A stretch of 64,000 nt of DNA, from contig NZ_BEWL01000003.1 of NCBI RefSeq assembly GCF_002723915.1, positions 248,001-312,000 on the forward strand. Direction: 5' to 3'. Each line of letters opens with the position of its first letter. The stretch's first letter is position 1. The notes under the pieces were generated by a model that worked only from the letters and a program-made list of their open reading frames with translations, searched no databases and had not been told where the DNA came from. Position numbers and translations under genes: made by a program. Of the stretch, positions 22,413 to 31,599 are shown in pieces. The stretch is from Gluconobacter albidus. GTDB taxonomy: Bacteria > Pseudomonadota > Alphaproteobacteria > Acetobacterales > Acetobacteraceae.

Positions 22413-24533
22413 TCATTTCCCGATCGTCGAGAGCACGATGCCCGGCGTCAGGATCTGCGGCAGCACAACGCCATCCTGATGCGGCGCATAATAGATATAG
22501 AACGGCACACCATCGCGCCCATGCGCCTTGAGGAACGCACCGATCGCCGCATTGCGGTTCGTCCAGTCCCCCTTGAGGAACACGATCTTTCGGTCCCGGA
22601 ACGCCTGCTGAACGGATGGCACATCCAGCGCCACACGCTCATTGACCATGCAGGTGATGCACCATGACGCCGTCATGTCGATGAACACCGGCTTGCCCTG
22701 CGCCCGAAGCTCGGCCAGACGCGCCTCCGAGAACGGCTCGATCCCGGCCTCCGAAGCGCCCGTAACCACAGGAGCAGGCGCGGCCCGCAGCCCCTGCGCC
22801 AGCGCGGCCCCACAAACCACAACACACAGCACAGCCACGATCCGGCAGAACGCCACCGTCCCACGGCCGCCCTCCAGCATGGACCGACGCTGCCCAACAC
22901 CATAAATCCAGCCCGCAAACCCCAGAAGCACAACGCCCCCGGCCGTCAGCGCCACAAACGTCACGCCCCGCTGAATTGCCGCCACCCAGAGCAGCCATAC
23001 GCAGGTCGCAAACAGCGGAAACGCCAGAACCTGCTTGAGAATACCCATCCAGGCCCCCGGCTTCGGCATCCGCGATGCCACACCCGGAACACCGGCCACG
23101 AGAATATACGGAAATGCCAGCCCAAGCCCCATCGACAGGAACACCAGAACCCCCATCACCGGCGGCCCACCCAGAGCCCCGGCAATGGCAACGCCCATGA
23201 ACGGCGCCGTGCAGGGCGTCGCCACAATAACCGCCAGCAGGCCCGTCATCATGTCCCCGCTCCGACCGCCGCCCGTCTGCACCTGACCCAGACGCCCGGC
23301 GCTGACTTCAAACACACCAAGCAGGTTCAGCCCCATCAGGAACAGCAGCCAGCACACGCCCACCACAAATCCCGGCGACTGGAACTGAAAGCCCCATCCC
23401 GCCGCAGACCCGGCCAGACGCAGCCCGATCATGACAATGCCCAGCGCCGCGAACGCTCCCGTCACGCCCAGCGTGTAGAACAGTGCGCTCTGAAGCTGCG
23501 CCCCCCGTCCGGCACCGCCCATCTTCGCCAGAGACAGCGCCTTCATCGCCAGAACCGGAAACACACACGGCATCAGGTTCAGGATCAGCCCGCCCACAAA
23601 CGCAAAGAGCAGAACCCGCAGCCAACCCGCGCCCGTCGGCACATCAGAAGCCGGTGCCGCATCCGCCTGCACAGGAGCCGCAGCAGCAGCCCCCCCAACC
23701 GGCCGCGCCTCGATCTGCAACGGGCTTTCCTGCCCCGCCGTATCCTTGAGCACGACCACGCCCACAAGCGGCTTGTCCCGATGCGCCGCTTTCAGGAATT
23801 TCAGCCCGAGCGTCAGCTGGCCATCAGAGACATGCAGCGGCTGTTCCGCGACCTGATCAATCACGCCCCCATCCTGCGGCAGGAACCACGCCTGCGACAC
23901 GGACGCCGCAGACAGCCCCTTGCCCGAAAGGGTCAGCACGCCGCCCGCAGAACCATTGGCCGCCGACACGCTGGCCGCAAACGGCGACGCCACCGGCGTT
24001 GCAGCTTCCGCCTTGCGGAACAGGTCCGCCTGCGCCCCGCCTTCCGACACATCACCGGTCGAAGCCGGCAGCGTCAGTGTGAAATCACCGCTCTCCGGAA
24101 TGCAGACCTGCGCACAGACAAGCCATTCCGCATGGGCATGCAGCGTTGTCCCGCCGGAACCCTTGAGAACCAGCTCCTCGGGCAGCGTCACCTCATTGAC
24201 ATAGGCATAGGACATGAGGCCGCCCTCACTGATCCGCACCGGCACCGGCCAGTGGATCGGACCGCCCTTGCCCGTCGCATCCCCGTCCGCCGTCACATCC
24301 AGCGTCGGCGTGTCCCCGGCATCGCCCGGATTGATCCAGTACGTATGCCAGCCCGGCTTGAGCTGAAGCCGGAGCCCGACCCGAAGATGCTGGTCCGGCC
24401 CGACCGCATCGCGATCCGTGACAAGCGTCGCGGTATCGTTCGCGGACGCAACCGGCGCGCTTTCCGCCGCCCGCGCGGACACGGATCCCAGACCCAGAAC
24501 CCCTGCCAGGAGCAGGGCCGACATGCTGAACAT
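22413..24533 (-). CDS. dsbD: Thiol:disulfide interchange protein, DsbD/ScsB family
   Basis: Moves electrons from cytoplasmic thioredoxin to periplasmic thiol proteins. About 706 residues: signal peptide (SARA), an N-terminal periplasmic domain of about 270 residues with CAQVCIPE, a membrane core with the redox pair LMPCVFPVL and ATPCTAPF, and a C-terminal thioredoxin domain with WCITC. The periplasmic part is the long ScsB-like kind (WHTYWINPGD). The ATG at 24533 was chosen; the frame also allows TTG at 24542. It is transcribed toward the frameshifted small gene, 36 bases away, and may be in one unit with it. Confidence 0.9.
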   Translation of the reverse strand: MFSMSALLLAGVLGLGSVSARAAESAPVASANDTATLVTDRDAVGPDQHLRVGLRLQLKPGWHTYWINPGDAGDTPTLDVTADGDATGKGGPIHWPVPVRISEGGLMSYAYVNEVTLPEELVLKGSGGTTLHAHAEWLVCAQVCIPESGDFTLTLPASTGDVSEGGAQADLFRKAEAATPVASPFAASVSAANGSAGGVLTLSGKGLSAASVSQAWFLPQDGGVIDQVAEQPLHVSDGQLTLGLKFLKAAHRDKPLVGVVVLKDTAGQESPLQIEARPVGGAAAAAPVQADAAPASDVPTGAGWLRVLLFAFVGGLILNLMPCVFPVLAMKALSLAKMGGAGRGAQLQSALFYTLGVTGAFAALGIVMIGLRLAGSAAGWGFQFQSPGFVVGVCWLLFLMGLNLLGVFEVSAGRLGQVQTGGGRSGDMMTGLLAVIVATPCTAPFMGVAIAGALGGPPVMGVLVFLSMGLGLAFPYILVAGVPGVASRMPKPGAWMGILKQVLAFPLFATCVWLLWVAAIQRGVTFVALTAGGVVLLGFAGWIYGVGQRRSMLEGGRGTVAFCRIVAVLCVVVCGAALAQGLRAAPAPVVTGASEAGIEPFSEARLAELRAQGKPVFIDMTASWCITCMVNERVALDVPSVQQAFRDRKIVFLKGDWTNRNAAIGAFLKAHGRDGVPFYIYYAPHQDGVVLPQILTPGIVLSTIGK

Positions 24534-24604
24534 TCGATGCAAGACAGGCTCATTCCACGTTTTCAGAAGACAGCCTTCACCATATCACTGACTGAAACGA
24601 AAAG

Positions 24605-24641
24605 CAGGACCCTTCCGGTTGTGAAACCGAAAGGCCCTGCA
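24605..24641 (-). terminator. Terminator of the SDR gene
   Basis: GCAGG...CCTGC with inner CCTT/AAGG and CGGTT/AACCG pairing; on the minus strand it is followed by TTTTCGTTT. It lies just after the stop codon at 24651. Confidence 0.7.
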
Positions 24642-24650
24642 AACCCCGTG

Positions 24651-25757
24651 TTACGGGATCAGCTTCTCAGCCCGCAGCCTCGTGAACAGATCGGTGAAAG
24701 AGTCCGGCGTGTACTGATATCCCGCAAAGCCTGCGAGGCGGCTTTTGCTGATATCCGTCACACATTCGACCGGCCGCCCCAGATCGGCATCCGTATGCCA
24801 GGCCGAAGCCAGCCGTTCGATCCGGCTTTCCGCAAGCCCGTATTCTGCGGCAATCCGTTCCCAGAGCGCCGCATCCCCCGCAAGCGTCTCTTCGAGGGAC
24901 GTCGCATGGCCGGGATACGGCGCAGCCTCGATTCCGAACCATTCCGCCAGACGCGGCCAGAGCCATTTCCAGCGGAACACATCCCCGTTCACGATATTGA
25001 ACGCCTGATTGCGTCCCCCCGCCTCGGTCGAGGCCCAGAAAAGCTGCCGCGCCAGTTGCCGCGCATCGGTCAGATCCGTCAGGGCGTTCCACTGCACGGG
25101 AGATCCCGGAAAAACGAAAGGCCGCCCGGTCTCGCGGCAGATCGTCGCATAGACCGCAAGCGTGCTGCCCATGTTCATCGCATTGCCAACCGCATAGCCG
25201 ATCACCGTATGCGGACGATGCACACTCCACGAAAACCCGTGTCGTGCGGCGGCTTCATAAAGCGCGTCTTCCTGATCGTAATAGAAATTCGGCAGATCCA
25301 GCCGGGGTGCGTCTTCGCGGAACGGCGTCACCGGCGGCTCGCCGGACGCATAGGATTCGAACGGACCAAGATAATGCTTCATGCCCGTCGTCAGCGCCGC
25401 ATGAGCCAGAAGTCCCGGCTCCGGCAGAGCGGCGAACACATTGCGGATCATCGCGGAATTGACGCGGCAGTTCTCTTCTTCCGTCTCCTGACGCAGCCAG
25501 GAGCAGAAAAACACATGGCTCGGCCGCAGATCCCGCAGCGCATGGGTCAGCGCTGGCAGATCCAGAAGATCGGCCTCAACCGGCAGCACGCCCGCCATGT
25601 CATGACGCGGCCTCCGCGCCAGACCATGCACGGTCCAGCCTTCGGCCACGAGACGCGCCACAATGTTCTGGCCAACAATACCGGTCGCCCCGACGACCAG
25701 CGCGGTCCGGGCCAGTGCTACTCCAGACGGCACCATGGCAGGAACAGAAGATGTCAT
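24651..25757 (-). CDS. SDR-family NAD(P)H oxidoreductase (PRISE-like)
   Basis: 368 residues of extended short-chain dehydrogenase type. The nucleotide-binding motif GATGIVGQN is near residue 22, an unusual ARRPRHD follows strand 2 (suggests NADPH), and FFCSWLRQ, ALTTGMKHYLGPFE and NFYYDQED (Tyr of the catalytic region) match the PRISE group (progesterone 5-beta-reductase / iridoid synthase-like enone reductases). Native substrate unknown; activated alkenes or enones are typical. The start at 25757 has AAGGAAA nearby. It is divergent from an HxlR regulator which probably controls it. Confidence 0.85.
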   Translation of the reverse strand: MTSSVPAMVPSGVALARTALVVGATGIVGQNIVARLVAEGWTVHGLARRPRHDMAGVLPVEADLLDLPALTHALRDLRPSHVFFCSWLRQETEEENCRVNSAMIRNVFAALPEPGLLAHAALTTGMKHYLGPFESYASGEPPVTPFREDAPRLDLPNFYYDQEDALYEAAARHGFSWSVHRPHTVIGYAVGNAMNMGSTLAVYATICRETGRPFVFPGSPVQWNALTDLTDARQLARQLFWASTEAGGRNQAFNIVNGDVFRWKWLWPRLAEWFGIEAAPYPGHATSLEETLAGDAALWERIAAEYGLAESRIERLASAWHTDADLGRPVECVTDISKSRLAGFAGYQYTPDSFTDLFTRLRAEKLIP

Positions 25758-25866
25758 GGGATTTTTCCTTTGCAGAAAACAGGGTCTGCTCCACATCTGG
25801 AAGACCATCCGCATTTCCGCCAGACGGCACCTTTTCGTGCCCTGGTGACCAGAAGGTGCCCACTCC

Positions 25867-26256
25867 ATGACCCCGCCGCTGCCCGAACACTACCGTCAGG
25901 CGCCTTTTGCCGAAGACTGCGCGCCCCGCCGGATCCTGAGGCTTTTCAGCGGAAAATGGACCACCATGATCCTGCACACGCTGCATCTTCTGGGCGGCAC
26001 GGCACGTCCCGGAAAGCTCCAGCGCAGCATCCCCGGCCTGTCGAAAAAAATGATGACCCAGACCCTGCGCGAGCTCGAAACGCAGGGCCTCATCCGCCGC
26101 AACGTCCGGCAGATCATGCCACCCCATGTCGATTACAGCCTGACGGATCTGGGTCAGACCTTCGTGGAACCCGTGGAGCTTCTCTATCACTGGGCCATCA
26201 GAAACGCCGAGGCCCTCGACCGGCTGATGCCCGACGACATGCCCCTGTCCGAATAA
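25867..26256 (+). CDS. HxlR-family transcriptional regulator
   Basis: 129 residues with the HxlR winged helix: FSGKWTTMILHTL, SIPGLSKKMMTQTLRELE and DYSLTDLG are the classic segments. A Cys near residue 18 (EDCAPRR) is where redox-sensing members have theirs. Divergent from the SDR reductase over about 110 bases, suggesting reactive carbonyl or quinone response with the reductase as target. This is inference from layout. Confidence 0.9.
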   Translation: MTPPLPEHYRQAPFAEDCAPRRILRLFSGKWTTMILHTLHLLGGTARPGKLQRSIPGLSKKMMTQTLRELETQGLIRRNVRQIMPPHVDYSLTDLGQTFVEPVELLYHWAIRNAEALDRLMPDDMPLSE

Positions 26257-26419
26257 AACACCCGCAGGAAGAGGGTAGGACAGGGCTGCCACCCTGTGCC
26301 ATGTTCGCACACAACAACCGCCCTCGGCGGACCACCCGGCGCAGGCCTCACATCCCGCCCCAGACACCGTAATTCCACCGCGTAACATCCCCGCGTAACA
26401 TCAAGGACCCAACAGAGCG

Positions 26420-28819
26420 ATGCCGTCGATCCCCCGTCCCGAGCCGTCCGCCTCACCCCACCCGCGAACCGGACGCGCCGTCCTCGGCCTCTGCCTCTTT
26501 CTGCTCCTCGGCCTTCTGACGCCCCTCCTGCCGGCAAAAGCCGCCGACAGCGCCCATCCCCTCAGCCAGCAGGAAGCGCAGCAACTCCTCAACGTCCTGA
26601 ACAATCCCAAGGAACGGGACGCCTTCACCCACACCCTTGACCTGATGGCCCGCGGCCTGCCGGTCGCAGCTCCCGCAGCAGCTCCTGCCGCAGCCCCTGC
26701 GAAAGCCGCCCCCGCCAAAACCGTCGCCGACGTCCCACCCGACATCCACACCGGCCTGAGCAGCATCCGCCTGCAGGCGCTGGGCTATCTGCACAACTTC
26801 CTCGGCCTGTTCAGCGACCTCGGCATTGTCGGTCACTGGGCCCACACGACCCTCGCTTCAGCCGATACCCGCACCACAATCCTTCACGCCTTCGCAGGCG
26901 GCCTCGTGGTCATGCTCTGTGGCGTGGCCCTGGAGCGGATTGTCGCCCTGAGCCTGCACAAGCCGCTGGTCCAGCTGACCCAGAACGCCGAAAACCGGGA
27001 GCAGCGCAACACCCTCGCGGACGAAGACGCCGCCGCCCATGACCCCATCGTCGACGGCTCCAGCGAAACCCGCGCCGCCGACCAGCGGCGTCAGGTCGAA
27101 ACCCTGCGCTTCCTGTCCCGCGTCCCTTACGCGCTGGGGCATTTCGCCCTGAAGGCCATCCCGGTTCTCGTCTTTCTGGCCGTCGCCTATCTGGCCGTTC
27201 TTGTCCTCCCCTGGAGCACCAAGACCGACAACGTCATCATGACGCTCGCCAACTGCTACGCCGCCGCCCGGATTCTCTATCTTTTCGTCGAAACCGGATT
27301 CGCGCCCCGCTCCCCCACGATCCGCCTCCTGCCCGCCACGGACGCCACAGCCTTCCTGCTGACCCGCTGGTGGAACGTGCTGGTCGCAGCCCCCGCCATC
27401 GTCTTCTGCCTGTCCACACTGGGCAGCCAGTTCAATCTCTCGCCCCGCGGCACGGATGCGATGATCCGCGGCATAATCCTGATCGAACATATTCTGATCG
27501 CCGTCTTCATCTGGCGAGTCCGACACCTCGTCAGCAGCGCGCTTCAGCCGCGCGCCGTCCCCGACACCGCGATGTGGACCTTCATTGTCGCCATCACGCG
27601 CCTGTGGTGGGTCCCGGCCATGTTCCTCGATGCCTCCCTCTGGATCGTCTGGGCCGCCCATCTTCCGGGTGGCTATCGCTGGATTCTCGACACCACCGGC
27701 ATCACGATCGGCATTCTCGTCGCCTCCCGCCTGATCGCCGTGCTCGCTTACGGCCTTCAGGACCGCTTCTTCCGCATCAATCCCGTCCTGACCGAACGCT
27801 TCCCCGACATCCAGAAACGCGCCGACCGCTATTACCCCTTCGCCCGCCGCATCCTGACCGGCGCCATTCTCTTCCTGACCCTGATCGCCATGACCGAAGC
27901 TTGGGGCCTGCCCACGTTCGGCTTCTTCATGAAAAACGCCGTCGGCCGCCACCTGCTCGACGCCGTCCTGACCATGCTCGTCGCCCTGAGCATCGCGGTC
28001 ACGATCTGGGAAATCATCAACGCCTTCCTCAGCCAGCAGCTCACCCGTTTCGAAACTTCGGACCAGCTCTCCCGCGCCACCCGCCTCCGCACGGTCCTGC
28101 CCATCATCCGCACCGTCCTGCTGGCCATCATCATCATCATCGTCGCAGTCACGACCCTCTCGCAGATCGGCATCAACGTCACCCCGCTGCTCACCGGTGC
28201 AGGCATCATGGGTGCCGCCATCGCCTTCGGTTCGCAGAGCCTGGTCAAGGACTTCATCACGGGCTTCTTCATGCTCGTCGAAGATGCCATCCAGGTCGGT
28301 GACTGGGTCACGACCGGCGGCGTTTCGGGAACGGTGGAAAACCTCTCGATCCGCACTGTGAAGGTCCGCGACATCAACGGCGACCTTCACATCATCCCGT
28401 TCTCGTCCGTCTCCTCCATCGCCAACACCGCCCGCGGCTACAACCAGGTCATCGTCAAACAGCAGCTCGACCTGTCCGAAGACCTGCCGCGCGTGACAGC
28501 CATCATGACAAAAACCCTCAAGGACATGCGAGACGACGCCGTCTTCGGCCCCATGATCCTGTCGGACTATAACGATCTGGGCGTGGATAACAGCGACAGC
28601 GGCGGCGCCACCCTCCTCGGCAGCTTCCGCACGGCACCGATGATGAAATGGAAGGTCAAGCGCGAGTTCTACCGCCGCATCACCAACCAGCTCGCCGCCG
28701 CCAGCATCAAGTTCTACACCGGCACGTCCTACTTCACGACGCCCCCCGGCAACGCCATGCGCATCACCACGGACGCCCCGCTGCCCATCCCGGCCAACGA
28801 CGCCCCCAACCAGACCTGA
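26420..28819 (+). CDS. MscS-family mechanosensitive channel
   Basis: 799 residues: signal peptide (LLPAKA), a periplasmic helical part with an Ala/Pro-rich stretch (residues about 77-97), several extra membrane segments, then the MscS core with pore helix GAGIMGAAIAFGSQSLVKD and the beta domain VGDWVTTGG...VRDINGDLHIIPFS. The large N-terminal half puts it with the MscM/YbdG/YjeP-like long members that relieve osmotic pressure. A strong terminator follows immediately. Confidence 0.92.
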   Translation: MPSIPRPEPSASPHPRTGRAVLGLCLFLLLGLLTPLLPAKAADSAHPLSQQEAQQLLNVLNNPKERDAFTHTLDLMARGLPVAAPAAAPAAAPAKAAPAKTVADVPPDIHTGLSSIRLQALGYLHNFLGLFSDLGIVGHWAHTTLASADTRTTILHAFAGGLVVMLCGVALERIVALSLHKPLVQLTQNAENREQRNTLADEDAAAHDPIVDGSSETRAADQRRQVETLRFLSRVPYALGHFALKAIPVLVFLAVAYLAVLVLPWSTKTDNVIMTLANCYAAARILYLFVETGFAPRSPTIRLLPATDATAFLLTRWWNVLVAAPAIVFCLSTLGSQFNLSPRGTDAMIRGIILIEHILIAVFIWRVRHLVSSALQPRAVPDTAMWTFIVAITRLWWVPAMFLDASLWIVWAAHLPGGYRWILDTTGITIGILVASRLIAVLAYGLQDRFFRINPVLTERFPDIQKRADRYYPFARRILTGAILFLTLIAMTEAWGLPTFGFFMKNAVGRHLLDAVLTMLVALSIAVTIWEIINAFLSQQLTRFETSDQLSRATRLRTVLPIIRTVLLAIIIIIVAVTTLSQIGINVTPLLTGAGIMGAAIAFGSQSLVKDFITGFFMLVEDAIQVGDWVTTGGVSGTVENLSIRTVKVRDINGDLHIIPFSSVSSIANTARGYNQVIVKQQLDLSEDLPRVTAIMTKTLKDMRDDAVFGPMILSDYNDLGVDNSDSGGATLLGSFRTAPMMKWKVKREFYRRITNQLAAASIKFYTGTSYFTTPPGNAMRITTDAPLPIPANDAPNQT

Positions 28820-28824
28820 TCCGG

Positions 28825-28854
28825 AACCGGCTCCTGACCCGGGAGCCGGTTTTC
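28825..28854 (+). terminator. Terminator of the MscS gene
   Basis: CCGGCTCC / GGAGCCGG stem with a short loop, followed by TTTTCC. It separates the channel gene from the following three-gene unit. Confidence 0.8.
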
Positions 28855-29041
28855 CACGACCGGACACCTCAATTCTTAATCATTTAAATAAAGTCTTGCA
28901 TTGCCGTGCGGACAGGCTCATTCTGCCCCCACATTATCGAGAACCCTCCTCCCGGTTCCCCGCAGACGATTTCCCGGCCCGATCCTCCCGCGGCCCCGCA
29001 TCGCCCGCCGATCGGCGAGGATCATGCCAAGGAATCCAGCG

Positions 29042-29365: not shown

Positions 29366-29590
29366 ATGACCCGCACAATCCGCCACGCCTGGCTGCAGCC
29401 CTTCCTGTCCACGACATTGTGGACCCTCGTCCTGATCGACATCGCCGTGATGACCTATCTGGAAAATCAGGATTTCTTCAAGGATTACGCCGGCTGGGCC
29501 TGGCCCTCCGTCCTGATCACCGGAATCATCGGCTATTTCATCGGCCCCGCAATCGACCGCATGTTCACCAGAAAATCCCCGAGCCAATAA
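29366..29590 (+). CDS. Small membrane protein (gene 2 of the toxin unit)
   Basis: 74 residues with two hydrophobic segments, TTLWTLVLIDIAVMTYL (about 16-32) and PSVLITGIIGYFIGPAI (about 47-63). GGAGAG lies upstream of the ATG. Its stop is 2 bases before the immunity/RNase fusion gene. Unknown function; by context it may anchor, export or take up the toxin, or be an unrelated passenger. Confidence 0.6.
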   Translation: MTRTIRHAWLQPFLSTTLWTLVLIDIAVMTYLENQDFFKDYAGWAWPSVLITGIIGYFIGPAIDRMFTRKSPSQ

Positions 29591-29592
29591 GA

Positions 29593-30333
29593 ATGACCAT
29601 CCCATCAGACCTGCCGGATCGGGAATGTCGCCGCCTCTTTCCACAACTGGCCAGCTACGGCGCCGGTCCGTTCGGGGAGGATGTCGACACATTCGGCGAA
29701 ACCCTGATGGACGTTATTCAGGACGTGACGGAGACCCGGACTTTCCTCACCCGGGCCGCCGCCATCCGCGAACTCGGAACCCTGCTGGCCTGCAACGATA
29801 CCGATCTGGCCCGGGTCACCCGGGCTCTGATCGCTTTCGATCCGGTCGCCCGGTTCAATGACCAGACTACCTGGCTCCCGGAACATTCGGCCCCGTTTCC
29901 CAGCCTCCGCGATTTCTGGACAGCCCTGTTAAAGAGCCTCGAAATCGGACCTCCTCCCTGGCCGGACACTTCAGACCGCCAGCTCGGAGGCTACGTTATG
30001 GAGCGGCATATCGCCCTGACAGACGCCGACATCGAAGAGCGATTTACCTACGAAAAACTCCGGTCTGTTTCTTTCTTCCACACAAAGGAAGACGCAGAGC
30101 GTGCCATCCTCCAGACGCTTCAGAGCAATGGGAATTCAATCGACGCATGGCGTGCCGAAGCACCTGACGGCATGCGCGAGAGCTTCGAGCAGGATTTTCC
30201 CGAAGGCGTCGGCATCGTCATCACGGAGCAGGATCGCCGCCCGACACCCGGCAAAACACTGTCCGTCACCCTGACCAAGCGCGAACTCCGCGGAATGGCC
30301 TATTACATCGAGACCATCAGGATCTACGCCTGA
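29593..30333 (+). CDS. Probable fusion of CdiI-like immunity domain and CdiA-type RNase A-like toxin domain
   Basis: 246 residues in one open frame. Residues about 10-115 (FPQLASY...ETLMDVIQDV...IRELGTLLACND) resemble the small CdiI-type contact-inhibition immunity proteins. Residues about 130-246 match the pattern of the bacterial CdiA-CT RNase A-like domain: GGYVMERHIAL, SVSFFHTKEDAERAIL, SIDAWRAE, GVGIVI and the end YYIETIRIYA. His139 and Arg150 are 11 apart, as I recall for the Yersinia kristensenii toxin; the Thr of its Thr-X-Tyr pair may be Thr241, while the Tyr position holds Arg243. So activity is uncertain. No signal peptide or secretion module is present. Normally toxin and immunity are separate genes; here the order is immunity first. 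All family calls are by eye. Confidence 0.6.
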   Translation: MTIPSDLPDRECRRLFPQLASYGAGPFGEDVDTFGETLMDVIQDVTETRTFLTRAAAIRELGTLLACNDTDLARVTRALIAFDPVARFNDQTTWLPEHSAPFPSLRDFWTALLKSLEIGPPPWPDTSDRQLGGYVMERHIALTDADIEERFTYEKLRSVSFFHTKEDAERAILQTLQSNGNSIDAWRAEAPDGMRESFEQDFPEGVGIVITEQDRRPTPGKTLSVTLTKRELRGMAYYIETIRIYA

Positions 30334-30334
30334 C

Positions 30335-30366
30335 AAAAAAAGGGGGAGCAGACCGCTCCCCCTTTT
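30335..30366. terminator. Bidirectional terminator
   Basis: GGGGGAGC / GCTCCCCC stem with A-run before and T-run after. It separates the converging toxin-unit gene (stop 30333) and beta-propeller gene (stop 30373). Confidence 0.88.
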
Positions 30367-30372
30367 CAAACC

Positions 30373-31599
30373 TTACCGCAAAATCCCCGTATGGCCGACG
30401 CTGTAGCGTCCCGGCTGCGGCCAGACCGTCAGGCCATGCGGCTCCGCGCCGACCGGGATCTTGCGCATCGCACCCGTATCGGTATCGATCGCATAGACCA
30501 CATCGTCGAACCGGCCCGACAGCCAGAGCAGCTTGCCGTCCGCGCTGACATTGCCCATGTCCGGGCTGCCGCCACCGGGGATCATCCAGGTCTTGATGAC
30601 CTTGTCCGTCGCAAAATCGATGATCGACACGCCACCCGGCCCGTGTTTCGGACCATGAATGCGATGTGATCCGCGATTGGCGACATACATCACCTTGCCA
30701 TCACGGCTCGGATACAGGCCATGCGTGCCGATACCCGTCGGGATGAAGCCGGTTTCCTTGAAGGAATCCCCATCCACAACGAACACACCATCCGCCATCA
30801 TGTCCGCGACATAGAACTTGTGACCATCCGGCGCCGTCAGAATGTCCTGCGGCATCCCGCCTTTGGACAGCTTCAGCATCCCGATCATCTTCAGGTTCAC
30901 CGTATCGACCTTGGCGACATAACCGCCGAACTCGCAGGTGAAGATCGCGTATTTCCCATCAATGGAGAAATCGGCGTGATTGACGCCCTTGCATTCCGGC
31001 GTCTCAACCGAGCCCTTCAGCTCCATCGTGTGCGGATCGCGGAAGTCCAGACGCTTGTGCGCCTCGGCCACCGTAATCGCGTATTTCCCGTCCGGCGTGA
31101 AATACATGTTGTACGGATCATCCACGGCAATGGACGGGCCCGGCTTGGCCGTCGCCGGATTGATCGGCGTGAGCGACCCGTCCGGACGGCCTTCGCTGTT
31201 ATTCGTCACCCACAGCGTCCGCAGATCCCAGGACGGCACCACATGCTGCGGCGAATGCCCGACCGGGAACGTGTCCACAACCTGAAAAGACGCCGGATCA
31301 ATAACGGAAACGCTGTCCCCGCGCAGGTTTGGCACATAAACGCGCGCCGGGTCCTGCGCGATCGCCGGCGAAATATGGGACGGGGTCGTCTCGCTGTAGA
31401 TGTTCTTCGGATCAATCACCGGCGGCATACCCGGAATCGTCTGGATGCCGGACGCCGCAACGGGGGCCGAAGCCGCGACCGGCGCGGACGCATCGGCCGG
31501 AACCGGCACCATCGGCGCACTCGGGGAATATTCCTGCGCATGGGCCGCGGCAGCTCCCAGCAGCGTCATCGCCACCAGAAGAGGAGTCTTGAATGTCAT
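30373..31599 (-). CDS. Exported YVTN/YncE-type beta-propeller protein
   Basis: 408 residues with a signal peptide (GAAAAHA), a Pro/Ala/Val-rich spacer, then seven-bladed-propeller repeats of the YVTN kind: VYVPNLRGDSVSVIDPA, LWVTNNSEG, FYVADMMADGVFVVDG, MYVANRGSH. The start overlaps the stop of the upstream creatininase gene by 4 bases, so the two are made together. Members of this family bind ligands or act beside periplasmic oxidases; no catalytic residues are evident. Confidence 0.85.
   Translation of the reverse strand: MTFKTPLLVAMTLLGAAAAHAQEYSPSAPMVPVPADASAPVAASAPVAASGIQTIPGMPPVIDPKNIYSETTPSHISPAIAQDPARVYVPNLRGDSVSVIDPASFQVVDTFPVGHSPQHVVPSWDLRTLWVTNNSEGRPDGSLTPINPATAKPGPSIAVDDPYNMYFTPDGKYAITVAEAHKRLDFRDPHTMELKGSVETPECKGVNHADFSIDGKYAIFTCEFGGYVAKVDTVNLKMIGMLKLSKGGMPQDILTAPDGHKFYVADMMADGVFVVDGDSFKETGFIPTGIGTHGLYPSRDGKVMYVANRGSHRIHGPKHGPGGVSIIDFATDKVIKTWMIPGGGSPDMGNVSADGKLLWLSGRFDDVVYAIDTDTGAMRKIPVGAEPHGLTVWPQPGRYSVGHTGILR

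Follow-up and report, generated by a model that had tools for sequence, protein, structure and literature searches.

Toxin–immunity pairs are usually treated as two genes with the toxin first, and a reading frame of Gluconobacter albidus in which both partners appear to share one chain, immunity first, raises the question of whether such a gene is real and what the cell keeps it for. The frame lies in a stretch of 64,000 nucleotides that was analysed as a whole (the window), and an initial annotation of that stretch had proposed that it joins a CdiI-like immunity domain to a CdiA-CT toxin domain of the RNase A-like type. The single-chain, immunity-first gene is real and conserved, and this natural form is kept in several species.

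Gene layout and identity of the two halves

The frame of 246 residues has exactly the coordinates first proposed for it and reads as a single chain (Table 1), in which a proline-rich linker of 13 residues, with a GPPPWPDT stretch that is identical across all five orthologues, separates the two halves. The features of a CdiA protein are absent from the chain and from its neighbour genes: the 246 residues open with the immunity domain, without a large exported N-terminal part and without a CdiB partner. The immunity-first order and the lack of any delivery part that could be recognised, both of which had been claimed, agree with the domain matches and with the structure comparison. The sole match in an NCBIfam scan was a weak one to a lipoprotein model, with 26.7 bits against a cut-off of 200.

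Table 1. Features of the fused gene and of its immediate surroundings (positions in the window).
Feature	Position	Strand	Remarks
74-aa membrane-protein-like gene	29366..29590	+	stop 2 nt upstream of the fused gene; left border of the variable spot
Fused immunity–toxin gene	29593..30333	+	246 aa plus stop; syntenic orthologues L029, L030, L031, L032
Predicted CdiI_2-type immunity domain	29593..29946	+	residues about 1–118; Pfam stretch 16–95; all-helical in the model
G28-E-D-x-D-x-x-G-x-T37 motif	29674..29703	+	G28, E29, D30, D32, G35 and T37 invariant in 13/13 (alignment A4)
Linker	29947..29985	+	residues 119–131 (GPPPWPDT...); low model confidence
Predicted RNase A-like CdiA-CT domain	29986..30330	+	residues 132–246; PF18431, 59.3 bits; 5e3e_B, Z 13.3
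GGAGG and in-frame ATG (Met136) 7 nt on	29986..30000	+	possible internal start, RNase half alone
His139	30007..30009	+	aligns with catalytic His175 of CdiA-CT Ykris; invariant in 16/16 toxin domains
Arg150	30040..30042	+	aligns with Arg186; invariant in 16/16 toxin domains
Thr241	30313..30315	+	aligns with Thr276; invariant in 16/16 toxin domains
Arg243	30319..30321	+	at the Tyr278 place; Lys or Arg in 15/16 aligned domains, Tyr in the remote L004
Hairpin 3' of the fused gene	30338..30366	+	-21.9 kcal/mol, z -4.9; likely bidirectional terminator between the fused gene and the converging YncE-like gene
YncE-like beta-propeller gene	30373..31599	-	right border of the variable spot

The C-terminal half is predicted from its sequence to be an RNase, namely an RNase A-like CdiA-CT domain. 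Its residues 134–241 match PF18431 (RNAse_A_bac) with an E-value of 8.3e-16 and a score (Table 1) above the cut-off of 27 bits, and this is the only PF18431 match in the whole genome. Sequence searches also lead from this half to the CdiA-CT chain of Yersinia kristensenii (5e3e_B), with an E-value of 2e-4 for the single sequence and of 3.8e-11 for a profile of 16 domains. According to excerpted text of PMC9086364, the active site of the Y. kristensenii toxin consists of His175, Arg186, Thr276 and Tyr278, and its CdiI contacts His175, Thr276 and Tyr278. Three of these four positions (His, Arg and Thr) are unchanged in the fused chain, and the fourth, Tyr278, is replaced by Arg243. The spacing of 11 between His139 and Arg150, to which attention had been drawn as a likeness to the Y. 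kristensenii toxin, is that of His175 and Arg186, with which the two residues align; the retained counterpart of Thr276 (Thr241) and the exchange at Tyr278 go beyond that first description. Since the split toxins of acetic acid bacteria likewise have Lys or Arg there, Arg243 reads as a trait of this branch and gives no sign of decay after the fusion.

The N-terminal half is by homology a CdiI_2-type immunity domain, for which neutralisation of a toxin is predicted. Residues 16–95 match PF18593 (CdiI_2) with 19.9 bits (E 0.0013), under the curated cut-off of 26.7, and for that reason the half is named CdiI_2-type by homology rather than a certified member of PF18593. CdiI_2 is matched, at E-values up to 0.1 and at best of 8.5e-7, by all 13 members of the N-domain alignment, fused and split, and a profile of the N half aligns with a set of eight small ORFs, each immediately 3' of another RNase A toxin (hhalign probability 91.8, E 7.5e-7, 55 columns). 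PDB sequence searches with the N half did not find the immunity chain of 5E3E. Elsewhere in the window's own genome there is a second, unfused CdiI_2-like gene (G000:C6:54564-54881; L035 7379-7924) with 33% identity, and no toxin-profile match was found near it in the 15 kb read.

An AlphaFold2 model built with 30 sequences (mean pLDDT 72.6, pTM 0.52) has an all-helical N half and a mixed C half, with a poorly defined linker (pLDDT below 50) between them. In Foldseek, the top ranks are taken by the toxin chains 5e3e_B and 5e3e_D, with E-values of 4.9e-7 and 4.1e-6 and TM scores by target of 0.83 and 0.84. The immunity chains 5e3e_C and 5e3e_A are matched with probabilities of 1.00 and 0.99 and TM scores by target of 0.76 and 0.73, but with E-values of only 0.08 and 0.18, and chance is harder to exclude for this match because the fold of the N half is helical. 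VIA-align places residues 134–246 of the model on residues 170–281 of 5e3e_B (rmsd 2.2 over 112 residues); its listing has one row per PDB entry and covers the toxin half, not the immunity half. As modelled, the two halves resemble both chains of the 5E3E complex, the toxin strongly and the immunity chain weakly.

Both identities proposed in the initial annotation can be maintained on these grounds. For the C half, the PF18431 score and the fold match to the toxin chain of 5E3E bear out an RNase A-like CdiA-CT domain, the predicted fold being that one and not an unrelated one; for the N half, a CdiI-like identity holds inasmuch as the PF18593 match is backed by the relatives and, weakly, by the structure match. 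The search of both halves against their families, which had been suggested as a check, came out unevenly, with the C half above the PF18431 cut-off and the N half below that of PF18593.

Distribution and relatives

When 26 Gluconobacter genomes are considered, one per species and with the window's own included, 7 match and 19 do not. The fused gene is syntenic in five of them. It is intact in four, namely the window's genome, G150 (G. aidae, whose copy has an 8-residue deletion), G151 and G152, and in G157 a stretch of 76 toxin residues is deleted in frame whilst the immunity half is kept. Two other genomes of the genus (G156 and G171) carry split pairs. Chance or artefact is rejected as an explanation of the frame, since three other species have it undamaged at the corresponding site and a fourth retains it in part.

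A scan of named genomes gave 15 loci, three fused and 12 split. The fused ones belong to Gluconobacter cerevisiae, G. cadivus and G. aidae (L100–L102), which correspond to G152, G151 and G150, respectively, and the split ones (L103–L114) to Komagataeibacter, Acetobacter, Acidomonas, G. vitians and G. kanchanaburiensis. The order is toxin then immunity in 12 of the 12 split loci; at L114 the toxin match is partial and the immunity gene is interrupted by a stop. The survey of fused and split homologues that had been called for thus places the fused form in five Gluconobacter and the split form at 12 named-genome loci. The Acidomonas methanolica locus (L112 5332-6655) has one toxin followed by three tandem copies of the immunity gene.

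Further afield, 18 of the 397 genomes in a survey of the family match. PF18431 was found in 10 of 150 family, 9 of 398 phylum and 8 of 385 class genomes, the window's own genome being counted in each, and PF18593 in five of the 385 class genomes, among which only the window's frame is also known with PF18431. No other frame with both PF18431 and PF18593 appears among the matches listed for the family, phylum and class samples, which are parts of larger groups and whose loci come from best matches only. At 19 remote toxin loci, no immunity match shares a frame with the toxin match. Eleven of them have an immunity match on another frame downstream of the toxin, a count in which only L115, L119 and L098 are independent finds, the immunity profile having been built from the other eight; the remaining eight loci have no immunity match, and a divergent immunity protein would look the same.

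A tblastn search of 50,697 phage records found no relatives, and none of the 278 viral-contig stretches that matched the pattern was confirmed; a phage origin is rejected on these searches. Twelve plasmid records match, each by one half only (two from Komagataeibacter by the N half, ten by the C half), and none of these 12 covers 80% of the fused query.

Some remote relatives differ in what accompanies the toxin domain. A family genome of 1.9 Mb (G029) has six PF18431 matches; in one of them (L004 427-1839) the toxin domain is fused to DUF2213 (152.8 bits), and a second frame, L018, opens with a near-identical N-terminal sequence. Intact RNase A toxins of about 290–340 aa at L092, L093, L115 and L108 have in common, as judged by eye, a glycine-rich hydrophobic N-terminal region that is perhaps a delivery part; in the two that were scanned, L092 and L108, this region of about 200 aa has no Pfam match.

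The genomic spot

The order of genes is the same in all five genomes with the fused gene: an MscS-like gene, a 149-aa and a 74-aa membrane-protein-like gene, the fused gene and, on the opposite strand, the YncE-like gene. A simple promoter and terminator scan listed nothing, the hairpin of Table 1 included. PADLOC defence models gave no match at E up to 0.01 for the fused chain and three upstream neighbours, nor did PHROGs at the same threshold for the fused chain and two neighbours. Two very long ORFs opposite other genes, at 26858-28867 (-) and 23781-26372 (+), are regarded as spurious antisense frames, a product of the G+C-rich DNA.

A homologue of the 74-aa gene is found in 17 genomes of the genus, in 13 of which it adjoins YncE, and the contents of the spot between the two vary. 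Five of the 13 genomes have the fused gene, five (G156, G160, G161, G164 and G165) a gene of about 183 aa, and three (G159, G167 and G171) are empty or have a remnant, that of G167 having been read by eye. Two of the five ~183-aa proteins were scanned and both match PF07262 (CdiI) below the cut-off, with E-values of 6e-4 and 2.4e-4; the other three were judged alike by eye, and a PDB sequence search with the ~183-aa protein gave a chance-level match only (E 0.32). At these ~183-aa CdiI-like genes (L121, L122, L124, L125 and L126), no toxin gene lies between the 74-aa gene and YncE. The fused gene is now a lone gene at a spot where other Gluconobacter carry a different, CdiI-like immunity gene, and what is marked here is a small Gluconobacter spot where unrelated immunity genes get exchanged.

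Origin, selection and movement

Gene orders among the relatives suggest how the two halves may have come together. In 4 of the 14 regions read in detail (L078–L081), an orphan toxin or toxin fragment follows the first immunity gene on its 3' side; L078 has the complete toxin–immunity–toxin–immunity array. Most likely, the fused gene arose from an array of a first toxin, its immunity gene and a second, orphan toxin, in which the immunity stop was lost and the two frames were joined; fusion of an immunity gene with the orphan toxin that follows it would yield the immunity–toxin order seen here. Measured from the end of immunity to the same profile position at the start of the toxin, the distance is about 35 nt, out of frame, in L078–L080 versus 21 nt, in frame, in the window, and a short deletion that removed the immunity stop and shifted the frame would yield the fused gene from an array of that type. 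Relative to the fused toxin half, the orphan toxins of the arrays read start some residues further into the domain, and the identity of the halves to array members does not single out the array position from which they came. An immunity half derived from the upstream pair need not be the natural partner of the toxin to which it was joined; array partners are about 70% identical, which makes cross-neutralisation of that toxin plausible. The early idea of a captured orphan pair is retained in part, since the gene order of the arrays and the CdiI-like gene at the same spot elsewhere give a closely related picture.

Purifying selection acts on the two halves with equal strength. Across the four intact genes (six pairs for each half), dN/dS is 0.17–0.31 for residues 1–118 and 0.14–0.32 for residues 132–246; synonymous exceeds non-synonymous change in six of six pairs in each half, with Fisher p values of at most 0.003 for the immunity and 0.022 for the toxin half, the pairs not being independent. 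The dN/dS of both halves exceeds that of most neighbouring genes, which are more constrained. In a tree of four neighbouring genes, the other four species with the fused gene group together to the exclusion of G. aidae, whose dS to the window is 0.27 in the immunity half, 0.18 in the toxin half and 0.22 in YncE versus 0.58 in the MscS-like gene and 0.76 in the 149-aa membrane-protein-like gene. Tree and dS values fit a movement of the fused segment into G. aidae by recombination.

Proposed function and alternatives

The reading to which we would give about even chances is that orphan-immunity cargo became fused to a neighbouring toxin cassette, that its RNase is silenced in cis and that the gene is kept mainly for its immunity half. 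Because the chain is without a recognisable delivery part, it would stay in the cytosol, where the immunity domain would most likely cover the RNase active site of its own chain, in the manner of 5E3E, and keep it silent; the toxin half, probably silenced by its partner half, would be a constrained, neutralised partner. Retention of the gene would most likely owe to the immunity half as a shield from the RNase A-type toxins that neighbouring acetic acid bacteria carry. Acetic acid bacteria share habitats and widely carry split RNase A-type toxins, which speaks for protection, as do the immunity-only gene at the same spot elsewhere and the loss of most of the toxin half in G157. Nevertheless, an immunity half that is bound by the toxin domain of its own chain might be unavailable for protection, and the equal constraint on the two halves speaks for a use of the toxin half itself.

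It is this equal constraint that makes a regulated single-chain toxin–antitoxin the main rival. Here a resting RNase would be freed by degradation of the immunity half or by an incoming toxin or phage protein, and growth would stop; we regard this as doubtful rather than improbable. The main idea of the initial annotation, a self-neutralised RNase set free by proteolysis, belongs to this reading. Purifying selection as strong on the toxin half as on the immunity half, the retained catalytic positions and the GPPPWPDT linker, unchanged in five of five orthologues, speak for it, and EzeT and CapRel provide precedents (excerpted text of PMC4826407 and PMC13423816). On the other hand, neither a trigger nor a protease site nor a neighbouring defence gene turned up, PADLOC and PHROGs being negative for the chain and its near neighbours, other species have an immunity gene without a toxin at the spot, and one species is without most of the toxin half. 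That last species also bears on the unlikely reading of the gene as a relic, the leftover of a lost toxin–immunity array that came to be in frame by chance and is eroding: the 76-residue in-frame deletion of G157, the 8-residue deletion of G. aidae, a dN/dS above that of most neighbouring genes in both halves and a chain without a delivery part would fit erosion, whereas four intact frames with dN/dS well below 1 in both halves, the retained active-site residues and the apparent movement of the segment into G. aidae by recombination (dS and tree) do not.

Two further possibilities concern the release of the RNase. The chain might act as an armed immunity protein, its immunity half being shield and sensor at once, so that an incoming RNase A-type toxin or phage product outcompetes the tethered RNase, frees it and the cell stops. 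This is very unlikely in our estimate; if true, a contact-dependent inhibition pair would have turned into a single-chain alarm of the CapRel type. Finally, it is highly improbable that the gene yields two products, the full chain as an immunity carrier and, from an internal start at Met136 (29998), a free RNase half. The GGAGG that precedes this ATG by 7 nt is found in four of the five fused genes and the ATG in all five, and the ATG is absent there from all eight split toxins examined. However, the GGAGG coincides with codons for Gly-Gly, a common pair, and may be due to chance, and a cell would hardly tolerate free RNase while its immunity half is blocked. Whichever the case, a natural single-chain, immunity-first gene that several species retain lets one ask directly whether an immunity domain silences a tethered RNase and still protects from incoming toxins, and how orphan cassettes become cellular genes.

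Comparison with known systems

The halves of the fused chain match both chains of CdiA-CT/CdiI from Y. kristensenii (PDB 5E3E), with the His, Arg and Thr positions kept and with Arg in place of Tyr278. In that system, according to excerpted text of PMC9086364, the toxin forms the C-terminal end of a large exported protein and immunity resides in a separate chain, in contrast to the one short, immunity-first chain found here. With the split pairs of acetic acid bacteria (L103–L114), the fused gene shares about 28–43% identity in the toxin half and 32–43% in the immunity half over the aligned rows, as well as Lys or Arg at position 243. Those pairs are, however, two overlapping genes with the toxin first, and their intact toxins are longer by some 200 aa at the N terminus.

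Orphan CdiI and polyimmunity loci, in which lone immunity genes lie away from toxins (excerpts of PMC9086364 and PMC3482391), resemble the Gluconobacter spot in that the latter holds different immunity families in different species. As described in the excerpted PMC3482391, toxin genes or cassettes never break up polyimmunity loci and are usually not associated with polyimmunity proteins, whereas here a toxin domain sits within the immunity chain itself. The same excerpt gives toxin-then-immunity as the most frequent order, attributed to export and cassette exchange, and a term search of it found no fused immunity–toxin chain. Ribocin of Pseudomonas aeruginosa has an RNase A-like fold closest to 5E3E, with its His, Thr and Tyr positions studied by mutation (excerpt of PMC13189344); unlike the fused chain, it is secreted with a signal peptide, has no immunity half and targets animal ribosomes, and no link to the fused gene is claimed.

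In the openly licensed part of PubMed Central, no paper was found that deals with a CdiI–CdiA-CT fusion or describes RNase A-like toxins from Gluconobacter or Komagataeibacter. The arrangement had initially been called new, which holds for the genomes searched but not for single-chain toxin–antitoxins as such, since these are already known in other families. The one-polypeptide system among those cited is one that we take to be EzeT, and the folds of EzeT and CapRel are unrelated to that of the fused immunity–toxin chain. Excerpted text describes the former as a one-polypeptide toxin–antitoxin system (PMC4826407) and CapRel as a single-chain toxin–antitoxin (PMC13423816). Both are regulated toxins with a studied inhibition, whereas for the fused chain RNase activity and its control are predictions; what the fused gene has in common with them is an inhibitor and a toxin in one polypeptide.
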